Of a stretch of DNA of 29,035 nucleotides, positions 922 through 28,681 are shown piece by piece; position 1 is the stretch's first letter; each line of letters starts with the position of its first letter. Both the position numbers and the translations under genes were made by a program. This DNA is from a virus, in the IMG/VR virus record IMGVR_UViG_3300021475_000045, positions 1 to 29,035 of that record. The stretch is one strand, 5' to 3'. The notes beneath the pieces were generated by a model that saw nothing but the letters and a program-made list of their open reading frames with translations, ran no database searches and was not told where the DNA came from.

Positions 922-1554
922 TCATCCTGCAAACGTCCAGAGGCGATAGGGATCGAGCAAGCGGTAGAATGCTGGTGGCATTTCCGCCGTCACATCACCC
1001 CGATTCTCGTAGTAGTGCGCGGTGCCCACCATGATCGCAATGCGGATCGGCATGGGCACGGCATCAGGGTCGCTGTCGTCATATCCAGCCGTGTAATCAA
1101 TGATCATGGACTGCTGCGGGATGCGCGGCAGAAGCTGCGGCTTCACCGCAACGTATCCAGGTTCCACGCCCAGGTTCAGGCTGTAGTCGTCAGGATCGGC
1201 AACCTGCATGTCGTCCAACGGCCCCCAGGTGATCTGCTGCACCGACTGGCACGGCGCGCGCGGAAGCTCTATCGGTCGTTTGACCAGAGGTGGCCAGTTC
1301 AACGGGAAGATGATCAAGCTCTGCGGGACGAGCGGCGTGGCGGTTGGCGGCGGTGCCCAGGTGACGGCGAATTGCAATTTCTGTGTGAACAGCGCGCGGT
1401 TTAGGAAGGCTTCAGCCTCCACGCGCGCACTGGTCACATACATCTGCAATATGTCGTCATCATAATCGGCGTCGATGCGGCAATGCTTACGCGCAAGGTC
1501 AGTCGTCACTGGCTCACTTGCAGGTGCCTCGATGACGCGCAGCGCGGCATACAT
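922..1554 (-). CDS. Gp6-like head-tail connector protein
   Basis: This 210-residue protein has the layout of the phage gp6-like head-tail connector family. An N-terminal helical part (EPVTTDLARKHCRIDADYDD, then ILQMYVTSARVEAEAFLNRAL) is followed by a beta-rich middle with PIELPRAPCQSVQQI and a C-terminal helix (PIRIAIMVGTAHYYENRGD). These proteins form a dodecameric ring below the portal. It starts one base after the preceding small gene, so translation is probably coupled; I see no clear ribosome site of its own. Confidence 0.85.
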   Translation of the reverse strand: MYAALRVIEAPASEPVTTDLARKHCRIDADYDDDILQMYVTSARVEAEAFLNRALFTQKLQFAVTWAPPPTATPLVPQSLIIFPLNWPPLVKRPIELPRAPCQSVQQITWGPLDDMQVADPDDYSLNLGVEPGYVAVKPQLLPRIPQQSMIIDYTAGYDDSDPDAVPMPIRIAIMVGTAHYYENRGDVTAEMPPAFYRLLDPYRLWTFAG

Positions 1555-1555
1555 G

Positions 1556-1768
1556 CTATTTTTTCACAATGCCGGCTGGTGCCACCTGACGCGCAGGGGC
1601 GTTCGGGTCCGTTGGCACCAGGAGGTTAAGCGGATGCGCAAGCCGCTTGGCGGCAAGGTCTTGCGCGGCTGCCATGGGAACCGCGATGATCTCGCCTGCA
1701 TTGTAGTGCTGGAAGCGCCGCAGGGTCCGCATGCTGACGAGCGTGCCGTTGGTATACGAGTCACTCAT
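1556..1768 (-). CDS. Small phage structural-region protein
   Basis: This 70-residue protein has no family I recognise. It sits between the Ig-like protein and the connector gene. Residues about 20-45 (HYNAGEIIAVPMAAAQDL) resemble the N-terminal segment of the neighbouring protein at 1780-2181 (SYNPGEVASFTAGEKQVL). The two genes therefore seem to share a short module of about 30 residues, possibly by duplication. It is probably a head or head-tail accessory protein. The start at 1768 follows the previous stop by 11 bases. Confidence 0.65.
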   Translation of the reverse strand: MSDSYTNGTLVSMRTLRRFQHYNAGEIIAVPMAAAQDLAAKRLAHPLNLLVPTDPNAPARQVAPAGIVKK

Positions 1769-1779
1769 TGGTCAGTCCT

Positions 1780-2181
1780 TCATTGGATGACAACGCCATT
1801 CGATGGCGGCGCGGCTGTCGATCCTGCGGCGTTGGTGGCGGTCACGATGCAGGTCCCGGTCAGTCCCACGTCAGCAACCTGCGTTGCATAGGTGGGTGAG
1901 TTCGTCCCGACGTTCACGCCGGCAACGCGCCACTGGTAGGCATAGCTGGTCGGCTCGCCATTCCAGGTGCCCATCGTGCAGGTCAGGTTGGACCCAACCT
2001 GTTGCACGGCGGGCACTGTCACGTTGGATGGCGGTGAAAGGATCACGCCCTTGTCGGCCAGGACCTGCTTCTCGCCAGCCGTGAAGCTCGCAACTTCACC
2101 TGGATTGTAGCTTGCCCAGTGCTGGCTGAACGTCACGACCTGATCGCGTTGCGGGATGCCTTCCACTGCCATCACGAACAT
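1780..2181 (-). CDS. Ig-like domain phage head protein
   Basis: I chose the ATG at 2181 because AGGAG lies 10 bases upstream and it begins 15 bases after the capsid stop; an open frame continues further up inside the capsid gene. The 133-residue product has an N-terminal YNPGEVASF module. From about residue 55 an immunoglobulin-like domain follows, with paired cysteines (NLTCTMGTW and TGTCIVTATN), the core tryptophan in YAYQWRVAG, and the closing TATNAAGS motif. Ig-like domains often decorate phage heads and tails and bind host surfaces. Its position directly after the capsid gene suggests a head decoration protein; that role is inferred. Confidence 0.75.
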   Translation of the reverse strand: MFVMAVEGIPQRDQVVTFSQHWASYNPGEVASFTAGEKQVLADKGVILSPPSNVTVPAVQQVGSNLTCTMGTWNGEPTSYAYQWRVAGVNVGTNSPTYATQVADVGLTGTCIVTATNAAGSTAAPPSNGVVIQ

Positions 2182-2195
2182 GGTGTTGCGACTCC

Positions 2196-3725
2196 TTATG
2201 CCGGATCGGTCAGTGTTGGCGGCGGGTTCGCGCCGGTCGCCAGCGCCGGTCTGATCGCCGCAGCCTGCGACCACGTGGGGTTAAGCGGCTGGGTGGTCCA
2301 CGGTGCCCCTGGCGAGCCAGGAACGCCTGTGAAGGCCCAGTCTTGCGTCAGCAGCACCACCAGACTCTGGAGGTGCCGCATGTTGACATCGTGCTCCGAT
2401 ATCACCCTGAACAGTGACTGATCCCGCTGGAACGCAGACACCATCGAGGTTCCGTCATTGTAGGCAGCCACGTCAGACGCATCCACGACCACATTGTAGG
2501 TGTCTGCAATTACAAAGTCGGCCATGTCGCAAAAATAGATTTCAGATGCCTTGGTGTTGGCACCCATCACAAGGTTCGTGGGTATCTGCTGCGTCAGGCG
2601 GATCGGGTAGCCTTCCCACATGCCCCTTTCGATTTCATCCTTCCAGTAGAAGCCGCCCACCTGATCGCGTGCCAGACTGATGAAGCGGGCAATCGTGGGT
2701 GCCATGATCCAGGTCGGGCGGATCATGCGCGACATGCCATTCTGAAGCGCCAGGATGGCAGCCGACGCGCCAGACAGGATTGCCGTCAGTTGATCACCAG
2801 GGGCCGGCGTTGCCGGCATGGCGGTCACGGTGATCAGGTTGGACGCCTGGACCAGATGGCGCATCCCGACCGGCCCCTTGTCTGTTCCGTCACCACGGAT
2901 GAAAGCAAGGTCTTCGCGGCGTGCAATGGTCTGCACCAGATCGTCACGCACGATTTCCTCCACGCCGATAGGCGAGCGGCGTATCAGGTCATTGCTGACG
3001 GGGACCATGGCCGTCAGCTTTTTGGCAACGAAGTTGACATCATCGAACCGCTCTTGGCTGATGCTGATGTCGTCAAGCTCGTTCTGGTAAGCAGCGGTTG
3101 CGCCGCCGGCCAGACGCGGGATGGTGAGGTTGCCCATCGGCATTCCCACCTCCATCGGGTTCGCGCCGCGCACCGCAGTCATGGCGCGCAGTAGCTCGAT
3201 CAGGTCTGCCATGAAGTCCTGCGGGATCAGCGCACCACCTTCGCCGGTCACGCCAGAGTTCAGCGCGCGGGCAACGATGTCATCCCCGAAGCGGTTGGTG
3301 ACGAACTCTGCTGCCTTCTCCATCGAGACGTGATGGAAGCGCGCATGCAGCAGCCCGCACACATAGCGCGCAGCCTTGATGCCCCGCTTGTCCTTCAGGC
3401 GCGCATCAGGGTCAGGCTTGGCACGCGCCGGCACTGTGGTCGTCCGCACGCGGAAGCCTGCCGGCTTCAGGCCCTTGTCATCATCATCCCCGCCTTCGCC
3501 GTCGTCAGCGTCCTGTGCACCTTCTGCGGCTGCCTGCATGGCTGCGGCAACGCGCTGGAGGCGTTGGTCTATTGAAGCCAGGGCAGATGCAAGCTGATCG
3601 AACGTGCTTTGCTGTTCATCATCCGGCTTGTCATCATCGTCAGCCTTCACGATCTCGCCCATCTTGGCGACAATCTCAGACCGCCGACGCTTCAGTTCGC
3701 GGTGTTTTTCACTCAGGGTGGCCAT
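2196..3725 (-). CDS. HK97-type major capsid protein
   Basis: The 509-residue protein has the two-part layout of HK97 capsid precursors. An N-terminal coiled-coil, strongly charged scaffold or delta domain covers about residues 1-85 (with an acidic run near residue 75). The capsid fold follows, with typical segments GEGGALIPQDF, RREDLAFIRGDGT and PVSNDLIRRSP. The prohead protease encoded just upstream would remove the delta part during maturation. The ATG at 3725 is preceded by AAAGGAT about 9 bases away. The C-terminal tail rich in Pro, Thr and Ala, ending LTDPA, is longer than usual. Confidence 0.95.
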   Translation of the reverse strand: MATLSEKHRELKRRRSEIVAKMGEIVKADDDDKPDDEQQSTFDQLASALASIDQRLQRVAAAMQAAAEGAQDADDGEGGDDDDKGLKPAGFRVRTTTVPARAKPDPDARLKDKRGIKAARYVCGLLHARFHHVSMEKAAEFVTNRFGDDIVARALNSGVTGEGGALIPQDFMADLIELLRAMTAVRGANPMEVGMPMGNLTIPRLAGGATAAYQNELDDISISQERFDDVNFVAKKLTAMVPVSNDLIRRSPIGVEEIVRDDLVQTIARREDLAFIRGDGTDKGPVGMRHLVQASNLITVTAMPATPAPGDQLTAILSGASAAILALQNGMSRMIRPTWIMAPTIARFISLARDQVGGFYWKDEIERGMWEGYPIRLTQQIPTNLVMGANTKASEIYFCDMADFVIADTYNVVVDASDVAAYNDGTSMVSAFQRDQSLFRVISEHDVNMRHLQSLVVLLTQDWAFTGVPGSPGAPWTTQPLNPTWSQAAAIRPALATGANPPPTLTDPA

Positions 3726-3781
3726 TGTTCATATCCTTTGTGCAGCGCGTTCCCGCGCAGTGATTAGCGGATGCCACAGCC

Positions 3782-4474
3782 CTAGACCTCGGTTGCCAGG
3801 GCAAGTTGGAACGCGCGTCGGCGGCGCATTCGTGCTCTTGTTTGTTCTTCATTAAAGCTGGTCAATTCCTCGCCGGTCACTGGCGGGGTATCTGACGCGA
3901 TTGCCGTGCCTTCACCCGGCCCTGGCGCATCAATCAGCGCCTCGGGGTTGGCGGGCACGGTGACAATGGATAACTCCACGAGTTCCTGTTCCTCGAAGTC
4001 GATCCCAGGAAACCAATCATCCGCGCCGCGTGCGGCATCGCGCGTGTAGTCCCATTTGACAGGTCTAAAGCCCACACTGGTCGCGGCAATGAAGCCGCCG
4101 CGTGCCAGCCGGTAGACCGACTCCGCGAACATGCCGCCTTCCGGCGTATCCTGCGGGATGAACTCGACTGACGCTTTCAACGCGCCGTCTTCCACCTTCA
4201 CATCGAACGCGCGCCCTATGGGCAGGCGTGACGCATCATGCCCCCACAGCACGACCGGATTTTGTTTGTAGTTTTTCAGGTCCCAGCCGGCCACGGCGAT
4301 CTTGTCCTGCTCGCGGTCCACGGCATCAGTGCTGATGGTGAAGCGCAACGCGCGCAGGTCCCCGGTCATCTGTTCAGCCGCCCCGATGATCTGCTTGCGG
4401 ATGCCAACGGCGGCGCGCGTCACGTTGCGGCCCCTGTTGAGCGACTTAAAATGCGTTGCGCTGACGATCATCAT
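3782..4474 (-). CDS. HK97-type prohead maturation protease
   Basis: The 230-residue protein is a member of the phage prohead protease family (peptidase U35/S78). The segment ISTDAVDREQDKIAVAGWDL is followed by NPVVLWGHD, which holds the catalytic histidine, and by ELVELSIVTVPANPEAL, which holds the catalytic serine. The C-terminal 60 residues are variable and end in a basic stretch. It cleaves the delta domain of the capsid protein and then itself. Its first ATG overlaps the portal stop as ATGA, so translation is coupled. Confidence 0.93.
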   Translation of the reverse strand: MMIVSATHFKSLNRGRNVTRAAVGIRKQIIGAAEQMTGDLRALRFTISTDAVDREQDKIAVAGWDLKNYKQNPVVLWGHDASRLPIGRAFDVKVEDGALKASVEFIPQDTPEGGMFAESVYRLARGGFIAATSVGFRPVKWDYTRDAARGADDWFPGIDFEEQELVELSIVTVPANPEALIDAPGPGEGTAIASDTPPVTGEELTSFNEEQTRARMRRRRAFQLALATEV

Positions 4475-5844
4475 GCGTTGGCACCTCCAGGTTGCGGCTG
4501 CGGCGCGGCGGCAGTGGGTGCGTTGCTTGCCTCTGACGGCGCTTCTGCGCTTGGCGGCTGATCAGTGGGGACTGCGGTATTGAGCGGCACGCGGTATTCA
4601 TCACCGTGCCCATCATCAATTGGATTCAAGTTCTCCCTGGCGCGCACCTCATTGCGTGACAGCCAGCCGTTGAGCGTGCCGATCTGATACGCCTGGAATC
4701 TGGTCAGCAGGTCCCCGCGCGTCATGTCGTCAAAGTCAAACTTGCACTCCAGGGTCATGCGCTCGTCATCGAACAGCAGATGATGATCGAACAACTGTTC
4801 CAGCGAGCGCGTGGTGGGCTTCAACGCGCTGTCAACATACTGCTGATTTTGTTGCTCAATGTTATTGAGTGTTGCCTTGTCCAACTCGCCCAGGCGGTGC
4901 GGCGGCACGCCATACAGCCGGCATATGTCGATCACCTGGAAGCGGCGCGTTTCTAAAAACTGCGCTTCCTCATTGGTGATCGCCACCTTCGTGAATTGCA
5001 TGCCTTCCTCCAGGACCGCAGCCTTGTGCGCGTTCTGGACGCCGGCATGTGTCTCGCGCCACGAATTGGCGATGCGGTCTGAGGCTTCCTTGCTCAGTTT
5101 GCCAGGGTGACTGATCACGCCCCCGATTTGCCCGCCCTGGCGGAACAGGATGCCGCCGTGCTGCTGCGTGGCCAGCGCCAGCCCAATGACATCCTGCGCA
5201 ATGGCAATGGGAGATACGCCGACATATCCATCCATGGAGATGTTCTTAATGTGGATCATGTCATCGGGCGGCACGATCAAGCCGTAGCCCAGGCGGCGGC
5301 TGTTGATTCGATACCAGAGTTCTCCATCATCCGTCAGCATGATGGTGCAGCGGTCTGGAGCGATGGGGACAAGCTCTATGGGGTTGGCGTCATTGTCACG
5401 TTCCACCACCACGAAGGCATTGCCGCGCAGGCACAGCGAGCTAACGGCATAGCCGATGAACTCGAACCAGGTTTGCCAGCGGTTCGGCCTCTGGAAGACC
5501 TTATTGAGCGGATGCCGTAGCTCGCGCTTGAATCCGCCGCCGCCCAGCTTGCGGCGCACGAACGGGGACAGCATGGCGATGTCCTGGGAGATGGCGCGGA
5601 TGCAGCCATATACGGCGGCGGCTTGCAGTGCGGTGAATGGCGTGACCGGAACGCCGGTATTCGATGCATAGCCTCCCAGCGCGGCATACAGCATCGGCTG
5701 TGGCCACCCCAGCCCGCCAAGGGTGGAGGTGACAGCAGCCGAGTCTTTCACCACGGCGGCGGCTGCCCCGGCTGTCATGAATTCGCGCCGCGTCAATCGC
5801 GGCTCGCGCGCCGTGCCCTGAAGGGAACCGTATGGGCGACTCAT
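4471..5844 (-). CDS. HK97-type portal protein
   Basis: The 457-residue protein carries landmarks of the HK97 portal family: [19 protein letters not shown], the [15 protein letters not shown] stretch, [11 protein letters not shown], and the C-terminal [19 protein letters not shown] segment. Twelve copies form the DNA entry channel at one head vertex and bind terminase. The C-terminal tail is rich in Pro and Ala. The N-terminus carries an unusual [16 protein letters not shown] stretch that looks like a twin-arginine signal. The gene overlaps the fibre gene stop as ATGA. Confidence 0.93.
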
Positions 5845-7679
5845 GTTGCAGGTCCCAGGTCCATGATCATGTATTGCGAGCGGTCTGCCACGCTGGCGTC
5901 ACCACCAGTGATGGACACTGGCTGGAGCGGTGCCGCACTGCCGCCGTCCACCAAGCGAAGCTGGATGGTCACAACCGGATTGAATCCGGTGACATCCGCA
6001 TACAGGTTGACCGTGAAGCCGGTTGCCGTGCGCTCGCCGCTTATTAGCTGCATGCCGTATATCCAGACGCGGCGCTCTGGGTTGCCCATGATGCGCGCGG
6101 CTGCGAGCACGATGCCTTGCCCGTTTGGTCCACCTGATCCGGTCAGCTTCACGTTGGCTGACAGGCTGACCATGATGCGTGAAATGCCGCCGCGCTGAAT
6201 CGGGTAGGCTCGGACATCCAGGTTGAGCCATTCGCCCGTCTCGGGAAGCGGGAAATCAATCGGGACGTTGTAAAGCAACGCAGGCGACCGCTGCTGCGTA
6301 TCCACGTAGGACTTGGTTGCTGCATCCTGCGGCGCGGTCGGCATGCCGAGTGCAGTGATCTTCTGATTAACCATGCTGATCGGCACGGCAACCATCATCT
6401 GATTATAGAACCACTGCATGACGACTTCGCCGCTGATCCCGACAACCACGACGTTGCCGGTGCGGAAAAAGCCGGTTGAATTGTCCCCGATTGCCAGACC
6501 TGGATCGGTGACGCTGGTGCCGCGCGCTGTGATCAATGTGCCGTCCATCTGCCCGCCAGCCTTGGCCAGATACGGGGTCAGGTCAGGCGGCGGCGGCACC
6601 AGGGAGTCGGCGTAGCGTTTGGTGGCTGCCTGATCCGCGCTGACCGGATCAGCCGCCAGCAGGAGCGGACCCAGCATCTGCCCGCCGTCCAGGCGCAGAT
6701 ACGGGGACAGGTCTGGCACCAGGGAGTCGGCGTAGCGTTTGGTGGCTGCCTGGGTCGGCGTGGTCGGATCTGCCGCCAGCGCCAGGGGTCCCAGCATCTG
6801 CCCGCCGTCCAGGCGCAGATACGGGGTCAGGTCTGGCGGCAAGCCATCCGCATACCGCTTCGTCACCGCGTGGTCTGGCTGTGTCGGTTCCACCTCCAGC
6901 GTCAAGGTGCCCTTGGCCCGCGCAGCCTCCAGCCACAATGCCTCACCGCTGACCGTCAGCCCGCCCAGGAGCGTGCCGCCAGTCATGGGCAGCACAGGCA
7001 CCCAGCCATCGTTCAGCCGGCCATAGGTCTGCCCTGGCGGCGCGTCAGGGAAGGAAGGGGGACCTGGGACCCCCTGCGGCCCCTGCCCGCCCTGATCGCC
7101 CTGCGGGCCTTGCACGCCAGGATCACCACGCGGGCCGGCTGGACCAATGCCACCCTGCGGGCCGGCTGATCCTGGCAGCCCTGCTGGACCGGCTGGACCT
7201 GCCGCGCCCTGGCTGCCTGGGACGCCTTGCAGGCCCTGCGGCCCAGGTGGTCCCACGCTGCCCTGCGGGCCGGCTGGCCCAGGCACGCCTTGCGGGCCTT
7301 CCGCCCCTGGCGGGCCGGTCACTGGGCCAATGCTGACCCAATCAGCACCGGTAAAGACGAACACATCACCGGCTTGCGGATCAGGGTCGAACGGCTGGAA
7401 GACCAAGCCCTGTCCGACCAGCATTTGCAGATCGTTTTCCGGTCTGCCGGGACCATCCCAATCAGCCGGGATCAGCCCATCAGGCGGCAGGTCAGCCGGT
7501 GACGTCACCAGCCCGAACATGCCAACGATGGTGGTGACGCGGCCCTCGGGTCCTGTGGGACCGGCTGGGCCTTCTGCACCCTGCGGACCTTGCGGCCCAG
7601 GCGGTCCAGGCATCCCGCTTTTGACGTGAATATCGATGGCGCGCGGCTCGCCCAGGATGCCGGTGATGATGTCAGGCAT
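5841..7679 (-). CDS. Collagen-like repeat fibre protein
   Basis: This 612-residue protein has two collagen-like Gly-X-Y tracts, at about residues 24-47 and 120-205, rich in [10 protein letters not shown] and similar triplets. Between them is a globular stretch with [13 protein letters not shown]. Three to four repeats of about 40 residues follow (about 270-400), each with [10 protein letters not shown] and [10 protein letters not shown], and then a C-terminal domain ending [11 protein letters not shown]. Phage collagen tracts form trimeric rods, so this is most likely a trimeric tail or head fibre. Its position between terminase and portal is unusual for a tail fibre. Confidence 0.85.
6601..6820 (-). 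repeat. 120-bp direct repeats inside the fibre gene
   Basis: The sequences starting at 6601 and 6721 are nearly identical for about 100 bases, exactly 120 bases apart, with a more diverged third copy after 6840. They encode successive copies of the [20 protein letters not shown] module. Low divergence suggests recent duplication or gene conversion. Confidence 0.85.
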
Positions 7680-10744: not shown

Positions 10745-11607
10745 GCCGCCACCAGCCGCATCCCGTATTCATCGTCCCCCGGCTGCACCTCCAGCCCAGG
10801 CTTGCGCACCAGCCGGTTGCACCGGAACTTGCTGTAGTCGACGTGGTGGTGATGCCGGCCATACCTCCAGGCCACGCGGCACACGTCAGGGTGCAATGCG
10901 GTCAGCATCAGCGACTTTGCCAGCGTCCCCCTGGCGTAAAGCTCGTCCGTGTTGCCGCCACGGATGCGCTGGGTGCGCGGCTTATTCACCAGGAAGGCAT
11001 TAAATAGCACCGTGCACAGCCCAGCCTTCAACATGCGCAGGGACAGGTCGGCATCCTCGTTGAAACGTGCCCGCCACCTGAACGGCAGGTCGTTACGGAT
11101 CAAATTGCAAGAGAATATCCGCGTATTCAGCGTAATGGGCGGTCTGGGCGCGCGGCGCAGCACGAAATTCTCGTAATTCGGACCCCCCATGGCCACATTC
11201 TCGTAGCGTAAGCAAAAATCCTCCATGACGCGGAATATAGTTCCATCTGCAACCTGTATTTTGGTGTTGCGGTTGCTGCGGTAAAAGCCGGCAATGTTAT
11301 CATCCATAATCCAGTGCCATGCGGCACCCTCTGACACGGCATGGTCCCAGATGAAGTTGCGCGCCGGCCCGCTGCCCTTGCTCCTGCTGTCATCCCAGTC
11401 GTCGCACGTGTCATAGTCGCGCTGATATGCCTTATCCAGCACCAGAAGCTGGCCAGGGTTGATCACCTGGGCATAGGCGCGGTGTTCCTGTTCCTCCACC
11501 ACCACGCGGTATGGCACGCGCAGGCGGTCCAGATACCGCATGGTGATCCTGGTATCGTGCCGGCCCTTGCTGGGGATGTAGACCGGGAAACTAGGATTCA
11601 CTGGCAT
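10741..11607 (-). CDS. TET-associated-type glycosyltransferase (TAGT-like)
   Basis: The 288-residue protein starts FPVYIPSKGRHDTRITMRYL and continues VPYRVVVEEQEHRAYAQVI, the entry pattern of the TET-associated glycosyltransferase family described in phages by the Aravind group. A DxD-like metal and sugar-nucleotide site is seen in WHWIMDDNIAGFYRS (about residue 100). The later NEDADLSLRMLKAG segment is typical of the second conserved acidic block. Family members are thought to add sugars to hydroxymethylated pyrimidines or related modified bases. Here the gene lies between ParB-like and terminase genes. The ATG at 11607 overlaps the ParB-like gene by 17 bases and lacks a good ribosome site. 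A protein-glycosylating role cannot be excluded. Confidence 0.78.
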   Translation of the reverse strand: MPVNPSFPVYIPSKGRHDTRITMRYLDRLRVPYRVVVEEQEHRAYAQVINPGQLLVLDKAYQRDYDTCDDWDDSRSKGSGPARNFIWDHAVSEGAAWHWIMDDNIAGFYRSNRNTKIQVADGTIFRVMEDFCLRYENVAMGGPNYENFVLRRAPRPPITLNTRIFSCNLIRNDLPFRWRARFNEDADLSLRMLKAGLCTVLFNAFLVNKPRTQRIRGGNTDELYARGTLAKSLMLTALHPDVCRVAWRYGRHHHHVDYSKFRCNRLVRKPGLEVQPGDDEYGMRLVAA

Positions 11608-14564: not shown

Positions 14565-15176
14565 CTAGGTGGCGACGGGATCGACGGCACGATCCTGGTC
14601 ATTGGCCGCGACGGTGGTTTCTGGCGCATGGCGTTTCACTCCCCCAGGTAGCGGATTGATCCGGTCAAGCTGTTCAGGTGTCGCATAGCGCGGCGTGCGG
14701 TCTGCAACCGTGACGGCTGGTGGTGCGCCATCATCACGCTCGATTGCCTCCAGGATATGCGGCGGCAGATAGCCCAAGTGCTGCGGTGCCCAGCGCCTGA
14801 CCAGGAATGCCAGCAGCCGCAGCGCACGCACGTCGCCCCTGTAGGCATGGACCTTGCGCATGATGCCGGCTGCGTCGTCCCAGTCCTGGCGCAGCCACGC
14901 TTGCCGGTCTTCCCAGGCTTCGCGCTCCAGCACCTGTTCCGGCACTGCCTGCTGGCGTTGCTGACGCGCATGGAATTCGGCCAGTGCTTTGCGAACACGA
15001 TCCGCGCTGTTCAGGCTGCGCAGGTCACGCCAGACGCCCTCGATGGCTGCCTCGGTGAACCATTCGGGCGGCAGGTCATCCAGCCGGGGGAGCAGATATT
15101 CCACCGTGCGTCGGCTGTTCCGTCCAGCAGGCAGCACCCTGTCACCCAGCGCAGCGATCCATTCATCCAGCGTCAT
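14565..15176 (-). CDS. Hypothetical phage protein downstream of the replication initiator
   Basis: I prefer ATG 15176 (MTLDEWIAALGDRVLPAG), which has AAGGA just upstream and overlaps the initiator stop by 14 bases; the frame extends to 15209. The 203-residue product is helical and rich in Arg, with TVEYLLPRLDDLPPEWFTEA and a central RQQRQQ stretch. The C-terminal tail is disordered. Proteins placed directly after a phage initiator are often helicase loaders, but no ATPase motif is seen here, so I leave the function open. Confidence 0.6.
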   Translation of the reverse strand: MTLDEWIAALGDRVLPAGRNSRRTVEYLLPRLDDLPPEWFTEAAIEGVWRDLRSLNSADRVRKALAEFHARQQRQQAVPEQVLEREAWEDRQAWLRQDWDDAAGIMRKVHAYRGDVRALRLLAFLVRRWAPQHLGYLPPHILEAIERDDGAPPAVTVADRTPRYATPEQLDRINPLPGGVKRHAPETTVAANDQDRAVDPVAT

Positions 15177-15744
15177 CGTCCTTGCTGCCTTTCCTGCCAG
15201 AAATTGCAACGACTAAAGCCTCCCGCTTGCGGGAGGTTTGGAGGGTTCTTTCTTTGGGGTTGGTAAGGGGTCTTCCCCTTACTTCTAGCTTCTGCTTCTG
15301 CTTCTGCTTCTGGATTCTGGGTAATAGGTGACCTAATAGGTCTGAGCCGTTTGACCTATTAGGTGACCTATTAGGTGACCTATTAGGTTCGCCCCACCTC
15401 TTGGCGATGTGCAGTCGGCCTTCCTGGCTGCGTTCAGCGTCACGGATCATTCGTCTACAGACAATGATCCCCTCATTGTTCCTACTGAAGACCCCCATGG
15501 TTTCAAGCTCGCGAATAAGGGGTAGCACTTGCCTCGCATCTGCTTTGCACATGCGTCCCACTTGCTTTGATTCTGTCTCGCACTTTCGTCGCGGCGGCAG
15601 AATGAGATGGCCGACCGGATCAGCGTTTGCCATCACGCAAAGCATTTCCATCCACAGCCCGCGTGCGGCGAGTGAACAGGCTTGCAGGTTCAGGTCCTGC
15701 TGCCAGTCACGCCACCAGAACTTGGCCCATTGCATCCCCTTCAT
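15163..15744 (-). CDS. Phage replication initiator (winged-helix type)
   Basis: The 193-residue protein opens WAKFWWRDWQQDLNLQACSL and continues AARGLWMEMLCVMANADPVG, the pattern of the N-terminal winged-helix domain of alphaproteobacterial phage replication proteins. ADARQVLPLIRELETMGVFS and EGIIVCRRMIRD complete it by about residue 107. The rest is basic and repetitive: NRSPNRSPNRS is encoded by the 12-bp iterons, and QKQKQKQK by a CTTCTG repeat. Initiator genes containing their own origin iterons are known from lambda gene O. An intrinsic-terminator-like hairpin lies in the last 30 codons. ATG 15744 is used; ATG 15735, after AAGGGG, is an alternative. Confidence 0.75.
   Translation of the reverse strand: MKGMQWAKFWWRDWQQDLNLQACSLAARGLWMEMLCVMANADPVGHLILPPRRKCETESKQVGRMCKADARQVLPLIRELETMGVFSRNNEGIIVCRRMIRDAERSQEGRLHIAKRWGEPNRSPNRSPNRSNGSDLLGHLLPRIQKQKQKQKLEVRGRPLTNPKERTLQTSRKREALVVAISGRKGSKDDDAG
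15216..15239. terminator. Terminator-like hairpin inside the initiator gene
   Basis: CCTCCCGC and GCGGGAGG (15219-15226, 15229-15236) form a perfect 8-bp GC stem with a 2-base loop, flanked by AAAG on the left and TTT on the right. It looks like a bidirectional intrinsic terminator, though it sits inside the 3' end of the initiator coding region. The T runs are short. Confidence 0.45.
15322..15388. repeat. 12-bp iterons, candidate replication origin
   Basis: Three perfect tandem copies of GACCTATTAGGT occupy 15353-15388. A variant GACCTAATAGGT is at 15330-15341, preceded by a partial copy (TAATAGGT) at 15322. Each unit is nearly palindromic (ACCTA T TAGGT). They lie within the replication initiator gene and next to a CTTCTG hexamer tract (15291-15312) with strong purine/pyrimidine asymmetry. 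The layout is like lambda ori inside gene O. Confidence 0.65.
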
Positions 15745-19619: not shown

Positions 19620-19954
19620 CCATGAAGGATGAAGCAGCCGGCGCGAAGACCGGGATTGAAGGATTGAACGCGCTATTCGATGCGTTCAAGGCGCAGGACA
19701 GGTCACAGGACATCGAGATCAGCGCGACGGTGGGCGAGACGCTGGACCTAAAGCGGGAAGTGCTGCTGATCCGCATCGGCAATACCAAGTTCCTGACCAC
19801 GGAACAGCAGGCAATCGGCCTGGCTCGTGAAATCGTCAGGCGCGCCGGCACCCTGTCCATCCCGCAGGCTATGCAGCTTGGTGAATTCGCTGGTGCCCTG
19901 GCAGCAGCCGTTGACAGCATCCAGCGGGCCAAGCGTCAGACCACGGTGCACTGA
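19616..19954 (+). CDS. Hypothetical phage protein
   Basis: The 112-residue protein starts at an ATGA overlap with GGGGGAA upstream; a longer open frame reaching back to 19529 is a shadow. The sequence has a strand-rich middle (DIEISATVGETLDLKREVLL, IRIGNTKFLTTEQQAIGLAR) and a helical end (GEFAGALAAAVDSIQRAK). I recognise no family. It is coupled to the next small gene by a TGATG overlap. Confidence 0.6.
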   Translation: MTMKDEAAGAKTGIEGLNALFDAFKAQDRSQDIEISATVGETLDLKREVLLIRIGNTKFLTTEQQAIGLAREIVRRAGTLSIPQAMQLGEFAGALAAAVDSIQRAKRQTTVH

Positions 19955-20373
19955 TGATCCCGCACTGCAAATGCGGAAGGAAGGCAATCGCCGTGTCGCC
20001 CGGTAGCGATGCGGTATATGCCCCTGGTCATATCCTGGTCACGCGCGCCGTGCCGGCCAGGGCATGGTGCAAGGCCCATTGGCTTCAGTTTACCGCGCAT
20101 CGCTCCGCTTCTCATCGCCCCGCTGCGCATGGCACCGCACCGCTACGCAACGCAACGCAAGACACCTCTACACCACGCACCGCAACGCTGCGCTCCGCTC
20201 CACCACGCGGCTCGCCGCAACGCACCGCACTGCCCCTCCCCGCATCTCAACGCAACGCTTCTCAACGCGCCGCATCGCATCTCGCCGCCCCGCAGCACCT
20301 CGCCCCGCAACGCCGCTCACTGCCGCTCGCCGCCTCTCGCCGCAACGCAACGCCTGAAAGGAAAGTAAAATGA
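19954..20373 (+). CDS. Small Cys-rich protein whose frame runs through pentamer array A
   Basis: ATG 19954 overlaps the previous stop. The first 48 residues look like an ordinary protein: MIPHCKCGRKAIAVSPGSDA, with a later AWCKAHW, so a zinc site (C-x-C and a distant Cys/His) is possible. From about residue 48 the frame enters the CGCNN array and becomes a low-complexity Arg/Ala/Thr/Ser/Pro tail of about 90 residues. It ends at a TGA overlapping the next gene's ATG (ATGA). Either the array was acquired at the 3' end of the gene and the tail is tolerated, or translation through the array couples to the next gene. The tail cannot be assumed functional. Confidence 0.5.
   Translation: MIPHCKCGRKAIAVSPGSDAVYAPGHILVTRAVPARAWCKAHWLQFTAHRSASHRPAAHGTAPLRNATQDTSTPRTATLRSAPPRGSPQRTALPLPASQRNASQRAASHLAAPQHLAPQRRSLPLAASRRNATPERKVK
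20096..20355 (+). repeat. CGCNN pentamer array A
   Basis: Fifty-two consecutive pentamers cover 260 bases with no register slip. By my count all 52 have C at the third position, 48 have C at the first, 38 have G at the second and 35 are exact CGCNN; positions four and five vary freely, mostly A, C or T. The array ends 14 bases before the ATG at 20370, just ahead of its AAAGGAAAG ribosome site. Confidence 0.9.
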
Positions 20374-20957
20374 AACTCTGCAAGGTTCACATCGAAGGCA
20401 TCCCCGGCTCGCCATACAGCCAGTCAGCACTGCATGAAGACCCCAAGCTGGAGCGGGAGTCGCATGACGACTACGACGCGCGCACTTGGCGCAGCAAGTG
20501 CACCACCAATGAAAGCGGACAGGTCTGCGTGCCGGCCATGGCACTGAAGCAGGCTGTCGACCTTGCCGCGCAGAAGCTGGGCGAGAAGATCGCAGGCCGG
20601 CGCGGTGCAACTTACAAGACGTTCTTTACCAGCGGAGTCATCTGCAATGGTGACGTGCCGATTGCCAATGGCAAGGCATTGACGCCCAAGGATGCGGTGA
20701 TGGTGATGATTAATGCTAACTCTGACGGCGTGCGCGGATCAGGTAAGCGCGTCAAGCGTCGGTTCCCGGTCTTTGACAAGTGGCACGGCGTTGCCGAATT
20801 TACGATCGTGGACGATATTATTACGCCTGAAGTGTTTGAACATCACCTAAAGTCTGCCGGTATGATCTGCGGGATTGGACGCTATCGCCCTGCCAACGGT
20901 GGCAGCAATGGACGCTTCCGCGTCACCAAGGTCGAATGGCAGGACATGAGTGTGTGA
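20370..20957 (+). CDS. Conserved-looking phage protein of unknown function
   Basis: The 195-residue protein has an excellent ribosome site (AAAGGAAAG). Landmarks are GSPYSQSALHED, SHDDYDARTWRSKCTT, GRRGATYKTFFTSGV, RGSGKRVKRRFPVFDKWHG and MICGIGRYRPANGG followed by RFRVTKVEW. I have the impression that similar proteins occur near phage recombination genes. The Gly-rich closing GIGRYRP...GRFRV block recalls RAMP-type RNA-binding folds, but this is a hunch from pattern only. It lies between two pentamer arrays. Confidence 0.7.
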   Translation: MKLCKVHIEGIPGSPYSQSALHEDPKLERESHDDYDARTWRSKCTTNESGQVCVPAMALKQAVDLAAQKLGEKIAGRRGATYKTFFTSGVICNGDVPIANGKALTPKDAVMVMINANSDGVRGSGKRVKRRFPVFDKWHGVAEFTIVDDIITPEVFEHHLKSAGMICGIGRYRPANGGSNGRFRVTKVEWQDMSV

Positions 20958-21068
20958 AGGTTTCCGCCGCATCGCATCGATCCGCTCCGCACCGCATCGC
21001 GTCTCCACGCGCCGCCCCGCCGCGCAGTGCTGCGCACCGCTTCGCCCCGCTTCGCCTCGCAACGCAAC

Positions 21069-21087
21069 GATTCATTTATGGCATTTC
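21069..21087 (+). repeat. Embedded element copy 1
   Basis: GATTCATTTATGGCATTTC, preceded by CGCAAC and followed by AACGC. Confidence 0.9.
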
Positions 21088-21210
21088 AACGCTCCGCTAC
21101 GCTCCACCCCGCACCGCACCGCGCCTCAACGCTTCTCCGCGCCTCGCTCCGCAGCGCAACGCTCCGCGCCACTCCGCTCCGCAGCTCGTCGCATCGCAAC
21201 GCCACGCAAC

Positions 21211-21228
21211 GATTCATTTATGGCATTC
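21211..21228 (+). repeat. Embedded element copy 2
   Basis: The same element with one T missing near its end (GGCATTC), preceded by CGCAAC. Confidence 0.9.
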
Positions 21229-21297
21229 CGCCGCTTCGCTACGCACCGCTTCGCATCGCCCCGCCCCGCTCCGCAACGCAACGCAACGCTACGCAAC

Positions 21298-21317
21298 GAT
21301 TCATTTTATGGCATTTC
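21298..21317 (+). repeat. Embedded element copy 3
   Basis: The same element with one extra T in the central T run (CATTTTATGG), preceded by CGCAAC. Confidence 0.9.
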
Positions 21318-21425
21318 GACGCGCCGCTGCTCGCCGCTGCTCTTCGCCGCGCGACGCACCGCACCACCCCGCTTCGCTACGCACCGCATCGCCCCGCCAC
21401 GCCTCACTGCGCAACGCAACGCAAC

Positions 21426-21444
21426 GATTCTTTTATGACATTTC
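21426..21444 (+). repeat. Embedded element copy 4
   Basis: A diverged copy (GATTCTTTTATGACATTTC) with two substitutions, preceded by CGCAAC. Confidence 0.88.
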
Positions 21445-21608
21445 ACCGCGCCGCATTGCACCTCTACACCCCGCCCCGCTCCGCTACTCAACGCAACGCA
21501 CCGCTTCGCGCCTCGGCACCCCGCCCCGCCCCGCACCGCAACGCATCACCCCGCCACGCTCCGCGTCTCACCGCACCGCTACGCAACGCTACGCAATAGG
21601 AATGAATG

Positions 21609-22118
21609 ATGAAGCCTTATGAACGCTCCGAGACGACCAGCAGCCTTGTCCGGTATTTGGCGCAGCATGAAAAGGGGACGCGCATCAACTATGAGGAACT
21701 GACCAAGGTCGCCGGCGTCAGCATTACATCACGCACGACCTACCTCACCAGCGCCCGCAAGATATTGGAACGCGACCACAATCAGGTCTGGGTATGCATT
21801 GCGCCTGTGGTCTGTATATACCGGCTGAACGATCCCGAGATTGTTGATCGACAGCGTAATTGGTTCCTGTTCGGCGCGCGGAATAAGCTGGTGGCGGGAT
21901 CACGTCAGGCTGACGTGGTGGAACTGGACGCCCTGGACATCAGCCAGCAGGCACGCTTCGCAACTGACAGCATCATCCGTGAGATTGCCCACGAAGCTCT
22001 GGCCCGCGCCACCAGACGGAAGGTGGAGAAGGTTGCGCGCGGATCATCCAATGATCTGCCGGCATTCAATGCGGTCGAATGGATGATTAGCCTGTCGCCC
22101 AAGCGGGCCGGCAAATGA
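21609..22118 (+). CDS. Hypothetical phage protein, possibly winged-helix
   Basis: The protein has 169 residues from ATG 21609 (AGGA seven bases upstream; an ATG at 21606 adds one Met). The N-terminal 60 residues look like a winged helix: SSLVRYLAQHEKGTRINYEE, LTKVAGVSITSRTTYLTSAR. The rest includes RNKLVAGSRQADVVELDALD and a closing SSNDLPAFNAVEWMISLS. I recognise no named family. It sits between pentamer arrays B and C. Confidence 0.65.
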   Translation: MKPYERSETTSSLVRYLAQHEKGTRINYEELTKVAGVSITSRTTYLTSARKILERDHNQVWVCIAPVVCIYRLNDPEIVDRQRNWFLFGARNKLVAGSRQADVVELDALDISQQARFATDSIIREIAHEALARATRRKVEKVARGSSNDLPAFNAVEWMISLSPKRAGK

Positions 22119-22120
22119 AC

Positions 22121-22432
22121 CACGCCGCAACGCACTGCAACGCTTCGCCCCGCGTCTCAACTCAACGCCACGCGGCGCACCGCTGCGCACCGCGCCGCCG
22201 CGCCTCGCAACGCAACGCCACGCAACGATTCATTTATGGCATTTCACCGCACCGCGGCTCAACTCTACGCATCGCCACGCCTCTCGCCGCAACGCAGCGC
22301 AACGCTTCTCCCCACGGCGCTACGCCCCGCCCCGCTACGCTACGCTCCGCAACGCAGCACCCCGCCGCGCGCCGCCGCGCCCCGCTCCGCACCGCAACGC
22401 CCCGCGTCGCTACGCTCCGCAACGCAACGCCT
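22121..22432 (+). repeat. CGCNN pentamer array C with one embedded element
   Basis: Twenty-one pentamers (22121-22225), then the element at 22227-22245, then 37 pentamers (22248-22432), all in register; the third base is C throughout. The array begins two bases after the stop of the upstream gene and ends at the GGAGG ribosome site of the next gene. Confidence 0.9.
22227..22245 (+). repeat. Embedded element copy 5
   Basis: Identical to copy 1 (GATTCATTTATGGCATTTC). Its ATG at 22236 opens a frame that continues in phase into the gene at 22443. Confidence 0.9.
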
Positions 22433-22442
22433 GGAGGAAGAC

Positions 22443-22685
22443 ATGACAGGGCCACCGTCAGACACGCCGCAGGCAGACCGCATCGAACAGGATGAATTCG
22501 CCTTGCTGGCGAATGAGTTCCGCTCCACAGCAGCACGGCTGCGCGAAACCGCTGACGCCTGCCGGCTGACTGGCAGACCATCCATGGCAGTCAGATATGA
22601 GGCACGCGCCTGGGCGGTTGCACAGGCTGGACTGTGCTGTGAACAGAAGCTGGAGGAAGCACGTCGTGAGCGTGAAGCAGATTGA
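22443..22685 (+). CDS. Small hypothetical protein
   Basis: The 80-residue product starts at ATG 22443 with GGAGG five bases upstream, right at the end of array C. It is helical: DEFALLANEFRSTAARLRET, then MAVRYEARAWAVAQAGLCCE and QKLEEARREREAD. The open frame continues upstream through the array to the ATG of element copy 5. I recognise no family. Its 3' end overlaps the next small gene. Confidence 0.6.
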   Translation: MTGPPSDTPQADRIEQDEFALLANEFRSTAARLRETADACRLTGRPSMAVRYEARAWAVAQAGLCCEQKLEEARREREAD

Positions 22686-22803
22686 ATTCGCCCTGTCGCG
22701 CCCGGTCTTCGATCCCGAAACACAGATCGTGCCGGCGCATTACTTCTGGATCAGCAGCACCAGCATCGGGGCATGCCTGACGGTCAATATCGGCCTGGAA
22801 TGA
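22666..22803 (+). CDS. Very small hypothetical protein
   Basis: A 45-residue product from GTG 22666, with GGAGG nine bases upstream; it begins inside the previous gene in another frame. The sequence reads IEFALSRPVFDPETQIVPAH and then YFWISSTSIGACLTVNIG. Length and start are modest evidence. GTG 22672 is an alternative start. No family is known to me. Confidence 0.45.
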   Translation: MSVKQIEFALSRPVFDPETQIVPAHYFWISSTSIGACLTVNIGLE

Positions 22804-22842: not shown

Positions 22843-23097
22843 TTGAGCCATCAGCAGCGCGGCAAGCCGGCCCCCGTGCTCCGTTGGAGCCGAACCACGC
22901 ACCGCATGATTGAAGCCGCACGCGACCGCATCTTTCAACGCTGCGGCACTGACGAACCGCTATACGAGTCAGGTCCTGACGAATGGCCGCTTGGTCACCA
23001 GCCGGTCACGCGGCAATGGCGCAAGCCGCTGACCATTGAGGAAGTGGCACGCATGGCACCCACGCCAGAGGTGCGCGAGCGGAAAGGACGACCATGA
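22843..23097 (+). CDS. Hypothetical protein, start uncertain
   Basis: The open frame of 84 codons begins at TTG 22843; a GTG 11 codons later and an ATG at codon 22 (MIEAARDRIFQRCG) are alternatives, and the GGAGG at 22815 is too far from the TTG. The C-terminal half contains PDEWPLGHQPVTRQWRKPLT and a charged end. It overlaps the alpha-CTD-like gene as ATGA, which supports the frame. Function is unknown. Confidence 0.5.
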   Translation: MSHQQRGKPAPVLRWSRTTHRMIEAARDRIFQRCGTDEPLYESGPDEWPLGHQPVTRQWRKPLTIEEVARMAPTPEVRERKGRP

Positions 23098-23447
23098 GCG
23101 CAACACATTCCTTGGATGACATACTCGACAGATCAATCCAGGACCTGGACCTGCCGGTGCGGGCAATCAACGGCATTCAATGCCTGACGACCGGCATGTG
23201 GCATAACATCACAATTCGCCATTTGGCAGGGATGAGCGCGATTGAATTGATGCGGCTTCCTAACTTCGGCAAGCGAAGCCTGGAAGACGTGCGCGACAGG
23301 CTGGCTGCGCGTGGTCTGTATCTGCGTGGCGAAGGCCCCCCAGCGAAGCCTAAGCTGGTGGAATGCCCGAAGCTGTCAGTCTCTCACCGGCTTCAGATCA
23401 TCGAGGCGAAGCTAGACCTGATCCTGTCCAGGTTGCTCCCACCGTGA
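23094..23447 (+). CDS. RNA polymerase alpha C-terminal-domain-like protein
   Basis: The 117-residue protein carries the alpha-CTD pattern. LDLPVRAINGIQCL corresponds to the LxLSVRAxNCLK helix, TIRHLAGMSAIELMRLPNFG to the second helix and turn, and GKRSLEDVRDRLAARGLYL to the GKKSLxEI helix. That is the domain of bacterial RpoA that binds UP elements and activators. The residue equivalent to RpoA Arg265 appears present (VRA). The C-terminal 35 residues form a helix (LQIIEAKLDLILSRL). A phage copy could bind phage promoters or compete with host polymerase; both are inferred. Confidence 0.8.
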   Translation: MSATHSLDDILDRSIQDLDLPVRAINGIQCLTTGMWHNITIRHLAGMSAIELMRLPNFGKRSLEDVRDRLAARGLYLRGEGPPAKPKLVECPKLSVSHRLQIIEAKLDLILSRLLPP

Positions 23448-25879: not shown

Positions 25880-27181
25880 ATGAACACCAATCTTGTAGCC
25901 AGGAACGCCAAGCCCAACACCAGGACTGGCTTCGGTGAGGTCTGCGCGGGCCTTTACCTGCTGACCAATAGCCAAGGCATCAAGACCTGGAAGTGCAATT
26001 ATACCTATCGGGGACGCTACAGCGTTGCGGACCTGGGACGGTATCCAGACGTGACGCCCAATGCCGCCATAGCAAAACGGCTGGCAATCAAGGATCAGGT
26101 CAAAGCGGGCCTCGATCCGCGTGACGCGGCACGGCAGACCAGGGCAGCCAATGAAGCCACGTCTGACAATACCGTGGAAGTGATGGCAGACCGCTGGCTG
26201 AAGCGTCAGCCATCCGTGCGTAACTGGTCAGACGGCTATGCCATCCTAGTAGCGGCGCGGCTGAGAAATCATGTGTATCCGCAGATCGGCAAGCGGCCCA
26301 TTGCCGGGATCACCACGCAAGACATTGAAACGCTGATCGACGGCATTATGGGCAAGGGGCTGCGCGCCCAGGCGGTCCATGTGAAGCAGCATCTGCAATT
26401 ACTGTTCGACTACGCCAAGCGGCACAACTTTGTGGCAGACAACGTGGTGCGGCAGATTGCGGAGGAATTGCCCGTGCGCAAGAGCGGTGATGAACGGGAA
26501 ATAAAGCGTGCGCGCGTTGGCACCATTGAGGAAGCGCGGCTTGTCCTGGCAGCCATGGAGTCATCTCCCGCCAGCGGCTTCCTGAAGCTGGCTCACCGGC
26601 TGATTGCTCTCACAGCCACCCGTAAGATGGAAGCTGCGGACGCAGCCTGGAGTGAGATCAAGCAGGGGCAGGATGGCTGGACCTGGACTATACCGGCGGC
26701 GCGGATGAAGGGTCCGATTGGCAAGAAGCAGGAACATGTCATCCCGCTTTCACCGCAGGCCCTGGAGGTCTTCCAGGCTGCTCGCCGGCTGGCGGATGTC
26801 CTGGGCATAGACTCGCCCCTGGTCTTCCCTGGTAGGGGGCGTCTGAGTCTGGAGCGGTCAACCTTTAATCACGTAATGATCGACGCTCTGCCCTCAGTAG
26901 GGCTTGCCGGAAAGCATACCGTGCACGGCTGGCGCGGCACGTTTAGCACGCTGCAAAACACGGAAGACCCCGCGCACAAGATGATCATTGAAGTAATGCT
27001 CGCGCATAAAACCGAGTCCAATGTGTCCGGTCGCTACAATGACTCTGTCTACCTGAAGCCCAGGCTGGAGATTGCCTGTGCATGGGCTGACAAGCTCTTG
27101 CTGGGTGCGCCTACAGCCTTACAGATTGCCGGAATTGAGCCAGCCGGTAACGTCGTGCCGTTCATTAGAAAGGTGGCGTAA
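25880..27181 (+). CDS. int: Tyrosine recombinase integrase (P4-like)
   Basis: The 433-residue protein has an N-terminal arm-DNA-binding domain (about 1-100: GIKTWKCNYTYRGRYSVADL, then GRYPDVTPNAAIAKRLA), a SAM-like core-binding domain (about 100-200) and a catalytic domain. Visible catalytic residues are Arg in LTATRKMEAADAAW, Lys in ARMKGPIGKKQEHVIPLS, His-x2-Arg in VHGWRGTF, His in LAHKTES and the Tyr nucleophile in GRYNDS. It integrates the phage into the host chromosome. The usual TGxR is replaced here by ATRKMEA. No attachment site core could be recognised. Confidence 0.93.
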   Translation: MNTNLVARNAKPNTRTGFGEVCAGLYLLTNSQGIKTWKCNYTYRGRYSVADLGRYPDVTPNAAIAKRLAIKDQVKAGLDPRDAARQTRAANEATSDNTVEVMADRWLKRQPSVRNWSDGYAILVAARLRNHVYPQIGKRPIAGITTQDIETLIDGIMGKGLRAQAVHVKQHLQLLFDYAKRHNFVADNVVRQIAEELPVRKSGDEREIKRARVGTIEEARLVLAAMESSPASGFLKLAHRLIALTATRKMEAADAAWSEIKQGQDGWTWTIPAARMKGPIGKKQEHVIPLSPQALEVFQAARRLADVLGIDSPLVFPGRGRLSLERSTFNHVMIDALPSVGLAGKHTVHGWRGTFSTLQNTEDPAHKMIIEVMLAHKTESNVSGRYNDSVYLKPRLEIACAWADKLLLGAPTALQIAGIEPAGNVVPFIRKVA

Positions 27182-28329: not shown

Positions 28330-28681
28330 GATACGCATCGCCATCATTTGCCGCCGCGCCCTGGCCGGCGCGGTAGCGGATCACCCGCTGCTGGACAGGA
28401 TGCCCGACCCACTGATCCCACACCAGCAAGCCGTCGCTATGCCGCGCAATCAGGATTGCCGCATGGGACCTGCCGTCAGTGTGGTTCCCGTAGCGTTCGT
28501 CTGGCCCGAAGGTGGCAATGGCCAGCCCTGCCGGCGCATCAGCAAGGCCCCTGACCAGCGGGCCGCGCCGCCACTGTGAGGTGTGCGGCGCGCCGCTTGC
28601 CTCCCGCACGAAGGCCACGCAGTGCCCATCACCCACGGTGCGGAAGATGAACGCAGCGGCGTCCCGCGCTACCCAGCGCAC
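28289..28681 (-). CDS. BPSL0067-family cysteine hydrolase, endolysin candidate
   Basis: The 130-residue protein matches the BPSL0067 pattern. GDGHCVAFVREASGAPHTSQ holds the catalytic Cys, AGLAIATFGPDERYGNH follows, and GRSHAAILIARHSDGLLVWD holds the catalytic His, with the closing DQWVGHPVQQR. These are NlpC/P60-like or CHAP-like amidases that cut cell-wall peptides and are found in phages and effector cassettes. With the overlapping holin-like gene it forms a lysis pair. The start is GTG 28681, which has only a weak AGGTG upstream. Confidence 0.8.
   Translation of the reverse strand: MRWVARDAAAFIFRTVGDGHCVAFVREASGAPHTSQWRRGPLVRGLADAPAGLAIATFGPDERYGNHTDGRSHAAILIARHSDGLLVWDQWVGHPVQQRVIRYRAGQGAAANDGDAYHVIITADPAAATA

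Follow-up and report, generated by a model that had tools for sequence, protein, structure and literature searches.

The window, the 29,035-nucleotide stretch of viral DNA analysed here, very probably carries a complete VIPR (Viral Interference Programmable Repeat) locus on a temperate phage, in which arrays of CGC/NN guide-RNA units lie together with the genes vipr and vap. According to the published main account, VIPR comprises a viral RAMP protein, an accessory vap gene and guide RNAs (PMC13142463). The guides consist of GGY/NN units, in which the NN letters alone base-pair with DNA and every unit passes over one base of the target (PMC13142463). The same account admits "a related consensus" besides GGY (PMC13142463), so that CGC is a variant and not a ground for exclusion from VIPR. 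The initial annotation had stated that no phage element of this form was described; the VIPR paper, posted in April 2026, describes one. Our assignment draws on locus anatomy, homology, protein fold, column constraint, turnover of the NN letters in a sister phage and gapped matches to foreign phages, all observed, and VIPR membership of the locus is well supported. Its variant status follows from differences in triplet, linkers, block lengths, AA 3′ ends and strand bias. CGC in place of GGY, the 3′ AA units, the unstructured linkers and credible targets that are exclusively antisense are new with respect to the published main account.

A window-wide scan found 217 in-register pentamers distributed over eight blocks, all on the + strand, which is much more than chance would give. 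Array A (20096–20355, 52 units) has C at position three in 52/52 units and at position one in 48/52, exactly as first described, and its 3′ end reads CGCAA CGCAA CGCCT directly before the ribosome-binding site of vipr. The initial annotation had counted three arrays with more than 200 pentamers; the number of pentamers was confirmed but not that of the arrays, because linkers of 22–23 nt with the sequence CGATTCATTTATGGCATTTCNN split B into five blocks and C into two. The blocks of B are B1 (20968–21067, 20 units), B2 (21090–21209, 24 units), B3 (21232–21296, 13 units, eight variable ones followed by a CGCAA-rich 3′ end), B4 (21320–21424, 21 units) and B5 (21447–21596, 30 units); those of C are C1 (22126–22225, 20 units) and C2 (22248–22432, 37 units). 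Between them lie the linkers B1/B2 (21068–21089, 22 nt, CGATTCATTTATGGCATTTCAA), B2/B3 (21210–21231, 22 nt), B3/B4 (21297–21319, 23 nt), B4/B5 (21425–21446, 22 nt) and C1/C2 (22226–22247, 22 nt), likewise on the + strand. The window linkers, B1/B2 included, are without RNA structure (z about +0.8). Inside each block the 5-bp register does not slip, as had been claimed, linkers being found only between blocks. On the minus strand of the window the pentamer scan found no array of this type, and the sole further + strand run (870–919) is weak (score 17.5) and lies within a coding region. Position 2 is the loosest of the three held columns in the window, with G in 187, T in 27 and A in 13 of the 227 scored units (the 10 units of the 870–919 run included).

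The same constraint is seen beyond the window. Over 5031 units, column entropies are 0.27, 0.73, 0.17, 1.98 and 1.97 bits for positions 1 to 5, and the triplet is CGC in 81% of the units, CTC and CAC coming next. The view of three held and two free columns thus stands for the held columns 1–3, where selection on a spaced motif is borne out across arrays; the free columns are not neutral but are the letters of the guides. NN=AA is enriched in the two or three units that close a block (99 and 117 of 205 blocks for the last two), and this conserved 3′ end is absent from the main text of PMC13142463. The comparison with a sister phage that had been proposed was run on L136, whose Vipr is 93% identical to that of the window. 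Its arrays keep the register and stand at the same places, and neither a lost register nor equal variation of all columns was found. The NN letters of L136 are almost entirely different from those of the window, a single guide, in array C, being common to both. An assembly artefact, also considered at the outset, is contradicted by ten exact consecutive units in 101 stretches of viral contigs, mostly with diverse NN. Nine-unit matches in 398 Pseudomonadota genomes were two only, both pure (CGCAA)n. Another phage, L052, has a distinct array architecture within the CGC/NN class: at 1386–3951 its array blocks alternate with linkers of about 60 nt that, unlike the unstructured ones of the window, contain two hairpins (z of −2.9 for one linker).

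The arrays occupy the gaps around two same-strand genes, at 20370–20957 and 21606–22118. The first, vipr (20370–20957, +), encodes a 195-aa protein of the Cas7/RAMP fold with the glycine-rich loop GIGRYRPANGGSNGRF; G164, G168, G170, G178 and G181 are at least 90% conserved among 53 homologues. Its AlphaFold model (pLDDT 94.9) displays an RRM core, and among solved folds Foldseek ranks Cas7/Csm3 subunits of types VII and III highest (E down to 6e-8), so that the predicted structure is that of a Cas7-type RAMP. A profile of the 53 homologues matches one PDB sequence, 36pp_D, which is the Vipr of Escherichia phage SUSP1 (E=1.3e-10). Window Vipr also matches phrog_4652 at 2.2e-11, which suggests that this family without assigned function is a Vipr family. 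E30 is invariant in the 53 homologues; by our own reading it is situated in the loop that follows strand 1, close to the position of the RNA-cleaving Asp of Csm3, and it could hint at RNA cleavage. The second gene, the vap-like accessory gene (21606–22118, +), encodes 170 aa with a putative winged-helix-like DNA-binding fold, for which the fold matches are weak, and is homologous to SUSP1 vap1 (2e-11, only two sequences having been searched). The SUSP1 locus itself, found via annotation, contains vipr at 28474–29061, a vap relative and (GGYNN)n arrays.

Genes and arrays are associated whichever of the two is used as a query. The 101 array loci were fetched by DNA pattern alone (ten exact consecutive units, viral contigs), and 53 of them have both vipr and vap, 19 one of the genes and 29 none; these last are mostly of low NN diversity or near the end of a stretch. 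Where the arrays of a locus lie on one strand, the strand agrees in 126/126 gene-array pairs. Conversely, CGCNN arrays adjoin vipr in all of the loci fetched by Vipr protein alone, namely 22/22 viral and 3/3 genome loci. The same two genes and the same arrays are present in L047 and L052. No homologue was found in genome contigs with the single window Vipr as query, and an alignment of close homologues retrieved three alphaproteobacterial loci from them; the diversity of the full 53-row alignment precluded a pattern search, and tblastn against isolated phages and plasmids gave no Vipr match. Eight loci (L017, L029, L037, L042, L050, L063, L108 and L111) were dropped as false arrays consisting of low-complexity or coding repeats. 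Upstream of the locus, the window has a Gam-like/Gp157 gene and a RecT gene; the phage is temperate, with an integrase at 25880–27181. Just downstream of the locus, at 23094–23447, a 117-aa protein matches PF03118 (RNA polymerase alpha C-terminal domain, 9.5e-11).

In order to decode the guides, their NN letters were written with a one-base skip and scanned against viral contigs, eight-unit cores being taken from four window blocks (B1, B2, B4 and C1). The B1 core matched six stretches, two of which extended well beyond it. The resulting guide (units 6–19, 20993–21062) matches the major capsid gene of L148 (26/28) and L149 (25/28) at the peptide GDAAFSKGNVQLRGA; we read the encoded protein as a probable HK97-type major capsid. 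Among the 38 stretches matched by the B2 core one extended, L191, where the guide (units 8–21, 21125–21194) matches 27/28 at the peptide TLEDAELLASRKF of a gene that appears, again on our reading, to encode the portal. The B2 guide also has L148 and L149 as targets. L148 had been fetched via B1 only, yet its portal gene contains a site matched by B2 (22/24), so that two window guides converge on one rival; from base counts, we estimate the chance of such a second match at about one in a million. The C2 guide common with L136 (units 10–20, 22293–22347) matched, with the one-base skip, a single viral contig, L141; the site corresponds to the peptide DYYGGFQGNFL and belongs to a DNA methyltransferase gene (phrog_3816). 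At this site the window guide scores 20/22 and the L136 version 24/24, that is 12/12 units, including bases that were free in the search pattern. The cores of B4 and C1 gave 26 matches, none of them extending, and in alphaproteobacterial genomes the C2 guide with at most two mismatches gave 3 matches, which is about chance (control 1).

The skipped base is the codon wobble in each of the three decoded window guides. Guides of other phages could be decoded as well: L126 targets the capsid gene of L149, L118 a terminase in L123, L120 the vap of the VIPR phage L135 and L062 a helicase in L053. Matches from L034 to L112 and those of L124 were set aside as not credible. The target sites are all in metagenome contigs. 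Self-matches of the window guides reach at best 12–15 of 20, with one at 17; for B2 the best is 21/28, starting at 4940 (+) within the portal gene of the window (4471–5844, minus). The capsid and portal genes of L149 are targeted at different sites by two VIPR phages (the window with B1 and B2, and L126 of the same metagenome). L136 carries, at 11477–11586 on the minus strand, a 22-unit array opposite to the strand of its VIPR genes that ends in CGCAA CGCAA; its guide matches 20/22 to a small window ORF near 22770 and 18/22 to L136 itself.

The one-base skip was controlled in a pool of 107 loci from which contigs fetched by guides were left out. Sites with at least 20/22 matches numbered 8 for skip 1 and 0, 1 and 2 for skips 0, 2 and 3, versus 1, 1, 0 and 1 with reversed-order guides in the same pool at the same cut-off. 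Four to five of the eight skip-1 sites are credible, with a wobble-placed skip in a recognisable gene. On the four target contigs, which had been picked with skip-1 patterns, window guides reached at least 17/20 at 34 sites with skip 1 and at no site with any of the other three skips. A first, sampled target search of the local pool (220/563 twelve-unit guides, every sixth unit) yielded no signal, in contrast to the exhaustive search of that pool, in which a target signal was present.

These matches bear directly on other explanations of the arrays. A DNA-level binding array (for partition, as origin iterons or for condensation), with a protein contacting CGC every half turn, agrees with the regular 5-bp spacing and with the adjoining winged-helix-like protein, itself recognised by weak fold matches only. 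It is contradicted by the gapped matches of the guides in capsid and portal genes of foreign phages, on account of which DNA iterons were rejected. The near-maximal NN entropy, the turnover between sisters and the Cas7 fold of the neighbouring protein also argue against it, a half-turn spacing makes no prediction for NN, and we consider this explanation highly improbable. The half-helical-turn DNA site proposed in the initial annotation is not retained either; the motif most likely operates within an RNA to which a Cas7-like protein binds. Still less credible, to the point of being negligible, is a functionless microsatellite that has expanded and is decaying. True period-5 microsatellites are known, (CGCCT)n in L037, L108 and L111 and (CGCAA)n in two genomes, but they have one or two distinct NN, whereas VIPR arrays combine nearly free NN with held columns 1–3 and are linked on the same strand to the two genes in all 126 cases. 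NN diversity, held columns and gene linkage thus lead us to reject microsatellite decay, for which the held columns had already been taken as an objection.

Translation of the arrays was considered as well. A stop-free translated spacer that lets ribosomes read through between genes would fit the forward codons (CGC, NNC, GCN, NCG and CNN) and the long ORFs that cross the arrays in three frames. These ORFs exist because CGCNN is free of stop codons whichever forward frame is read, and are a by-product of the motif. A translated spacer leaves both the NN entropy and the target matches without explanation and is very unlikely; coding repeats were rejected as an explanation of the arrays, and the earlier argument that coding in a single frame cannot produce them is sound. 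The ORFs that traverse the arrays (19954–20373, 20009–20368, 20064–20357, 20936–21622, 20950–21438, 21027–21599 and 22115–22495) are spurious and, for annotators, prone to mis-annotation as Arg/Ala/Pro-rich proteins.

The arrays are best explained as VIPR guides, and the way in which these would act can be outlined from the SUSP1 work, by analogy with which transcription, processing, RNP assembly, binding and silencing are proposed. The array strand would be co-transcribed with vipr and vap and give vrRNAs. Vipr subunits would coat this RNA, one per 5-nt unit, with CGC held and NN presented, and about 12–15 consecutive NN pairs would read the target as NN-x-NN-x-…, one target base per unit being skipped at the codon wobble. 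In this manner the locus may silence competing phages. Because its guides aim at genes for structural proteins and for DNA modification in other phages, it is most likely an inter-phage weapon directed against such competitors. Judged from sequence alone, the VIPR code holds with a different scaffold triplet. Concrete prey genes can be named for the window phage (capsid, portal and methyltransferase of rival phages), and an apparently inexplicable pentamer repeat is solved.

The type II VIPR of SUSP1 (PDB 36pp) is the closest known system. Both are phage-borne and consist of two genes, a single-domain RAMP Vipr and a DNA-binding vap, with intergenic 5-nt units made of a fixed triplet and variable NN; in both, one target base is skipped at the codon wobble and the targets lie in competing phages, including another VIPR locus. 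They differ in the triplet, which is GGY there and CGC (CKC) here, and in the pseudoknotted, structured 3′ tail of the type II guides in the published main account, here replaced by 22-nt unstructured linkers. Blocks contain 9–16 units in that account and 13–52 here, and the conserved NN=AA of the last two or three units and the restriction of credible targets to the antisense strand are likewise particular to the present locus. Type III (Csm3) and type VII Cas7 proteins share with Vipr the RRM core, the glycine-rich loop, one fold over the whole model and the logic of RNA coating. Unlike type III/VII CRISPR, the window locus is devoid of CRISPR repeats, contiguously read spacers, Cas10, Cas5 and a nuclease gene, and its arrays have a 5-nt periodicity instead of 6-nt. 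The tandem-repeat scan of the window detected no CRISPR-like repeats, further cas genes are absent at the locus, and a search of Rfam gave no match.

Every target judged credible runs antisense to its gene and places the skipped base at codon position 3. At 18/20 matches, real and reversed guides gave 22 vs 8 antisense-wobble sites and 2 vs 3 sense-wobble sites, and the antisense-wobble class is the only one clearly above reversed guides; at 19/20 it counts 5 real vs 0 reversed. Independently of this, the NN letters of 4275 units have a spectrum that agrees with codon positions 1–2 read antisense, with a sense share of 0.15 (95% CI 0.05–0.28). In the published main account, GGY systems have targets on both strands and silence from either strand (PMC13142463). 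The bias seen here therefore points to RNA targeting, to a roadblock on the coding strand or to strand-biased guide acquisition. One possibility, which we regard as rather unlikely, is that the locus is a VIPR locus whose CGC/NN guides base-pair with the transcripts of their targets, or necessarily with the coding strand, and not with either DNA strand. It is favoured by the antisense-wobble excess over reversed guides, by the NN spectrum read antisense and by the nearest folds to Vipr, which are RNA-targeting Csm3/type VII subunits. The credible targets, all antisense-wobble, also agree with it: capsid (window B1; L126), portal (B2), methyltransferase (C2/L136), vap of a rival VIPR (L120 to L135), terminase (L118 to L123), helicase (L062 to L053) and the small window ORF (L136 minus array). 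Against it, VIPR as presented in the main account binds double-stranded DNA on either strand (PMC13142463), and a CRISPRi-like roadblock on the non-template strand, or the mode of guide acquisition, could also produce the bias. Moreover, the independent targets are eight only, and the antisense codon-1–2 and sense codon-2–3 spectra are alike, being 16–59 log units apart. The CGC/NN class may, tentatively, be a VIPR lineage with a recoded scaffold triplet and guides that pair with transcripts or strictly with the coding strand. If true, the locus would be an inter-phage weapon resembling RNA interference with a noncontiguous code, and not a strand-blind DNA binder. An antisense-only bias is absent from the published main account, and DNA versus RNA targeting in the CGC/NN class is directly testable.

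Two further repeats were noted in the window, away from the VIPR locus. A collagen-like Gly-X-Y repeat protein is encoded at 5841–7679, adjoining the structural genes, with 120-bp repeats at 6595–6901. The 12-bp repeat TGACCTATTAGG is present in three perfect copies at 15352–15388, inside the ORF 15163–15744, and is possibly a replication or operator site.
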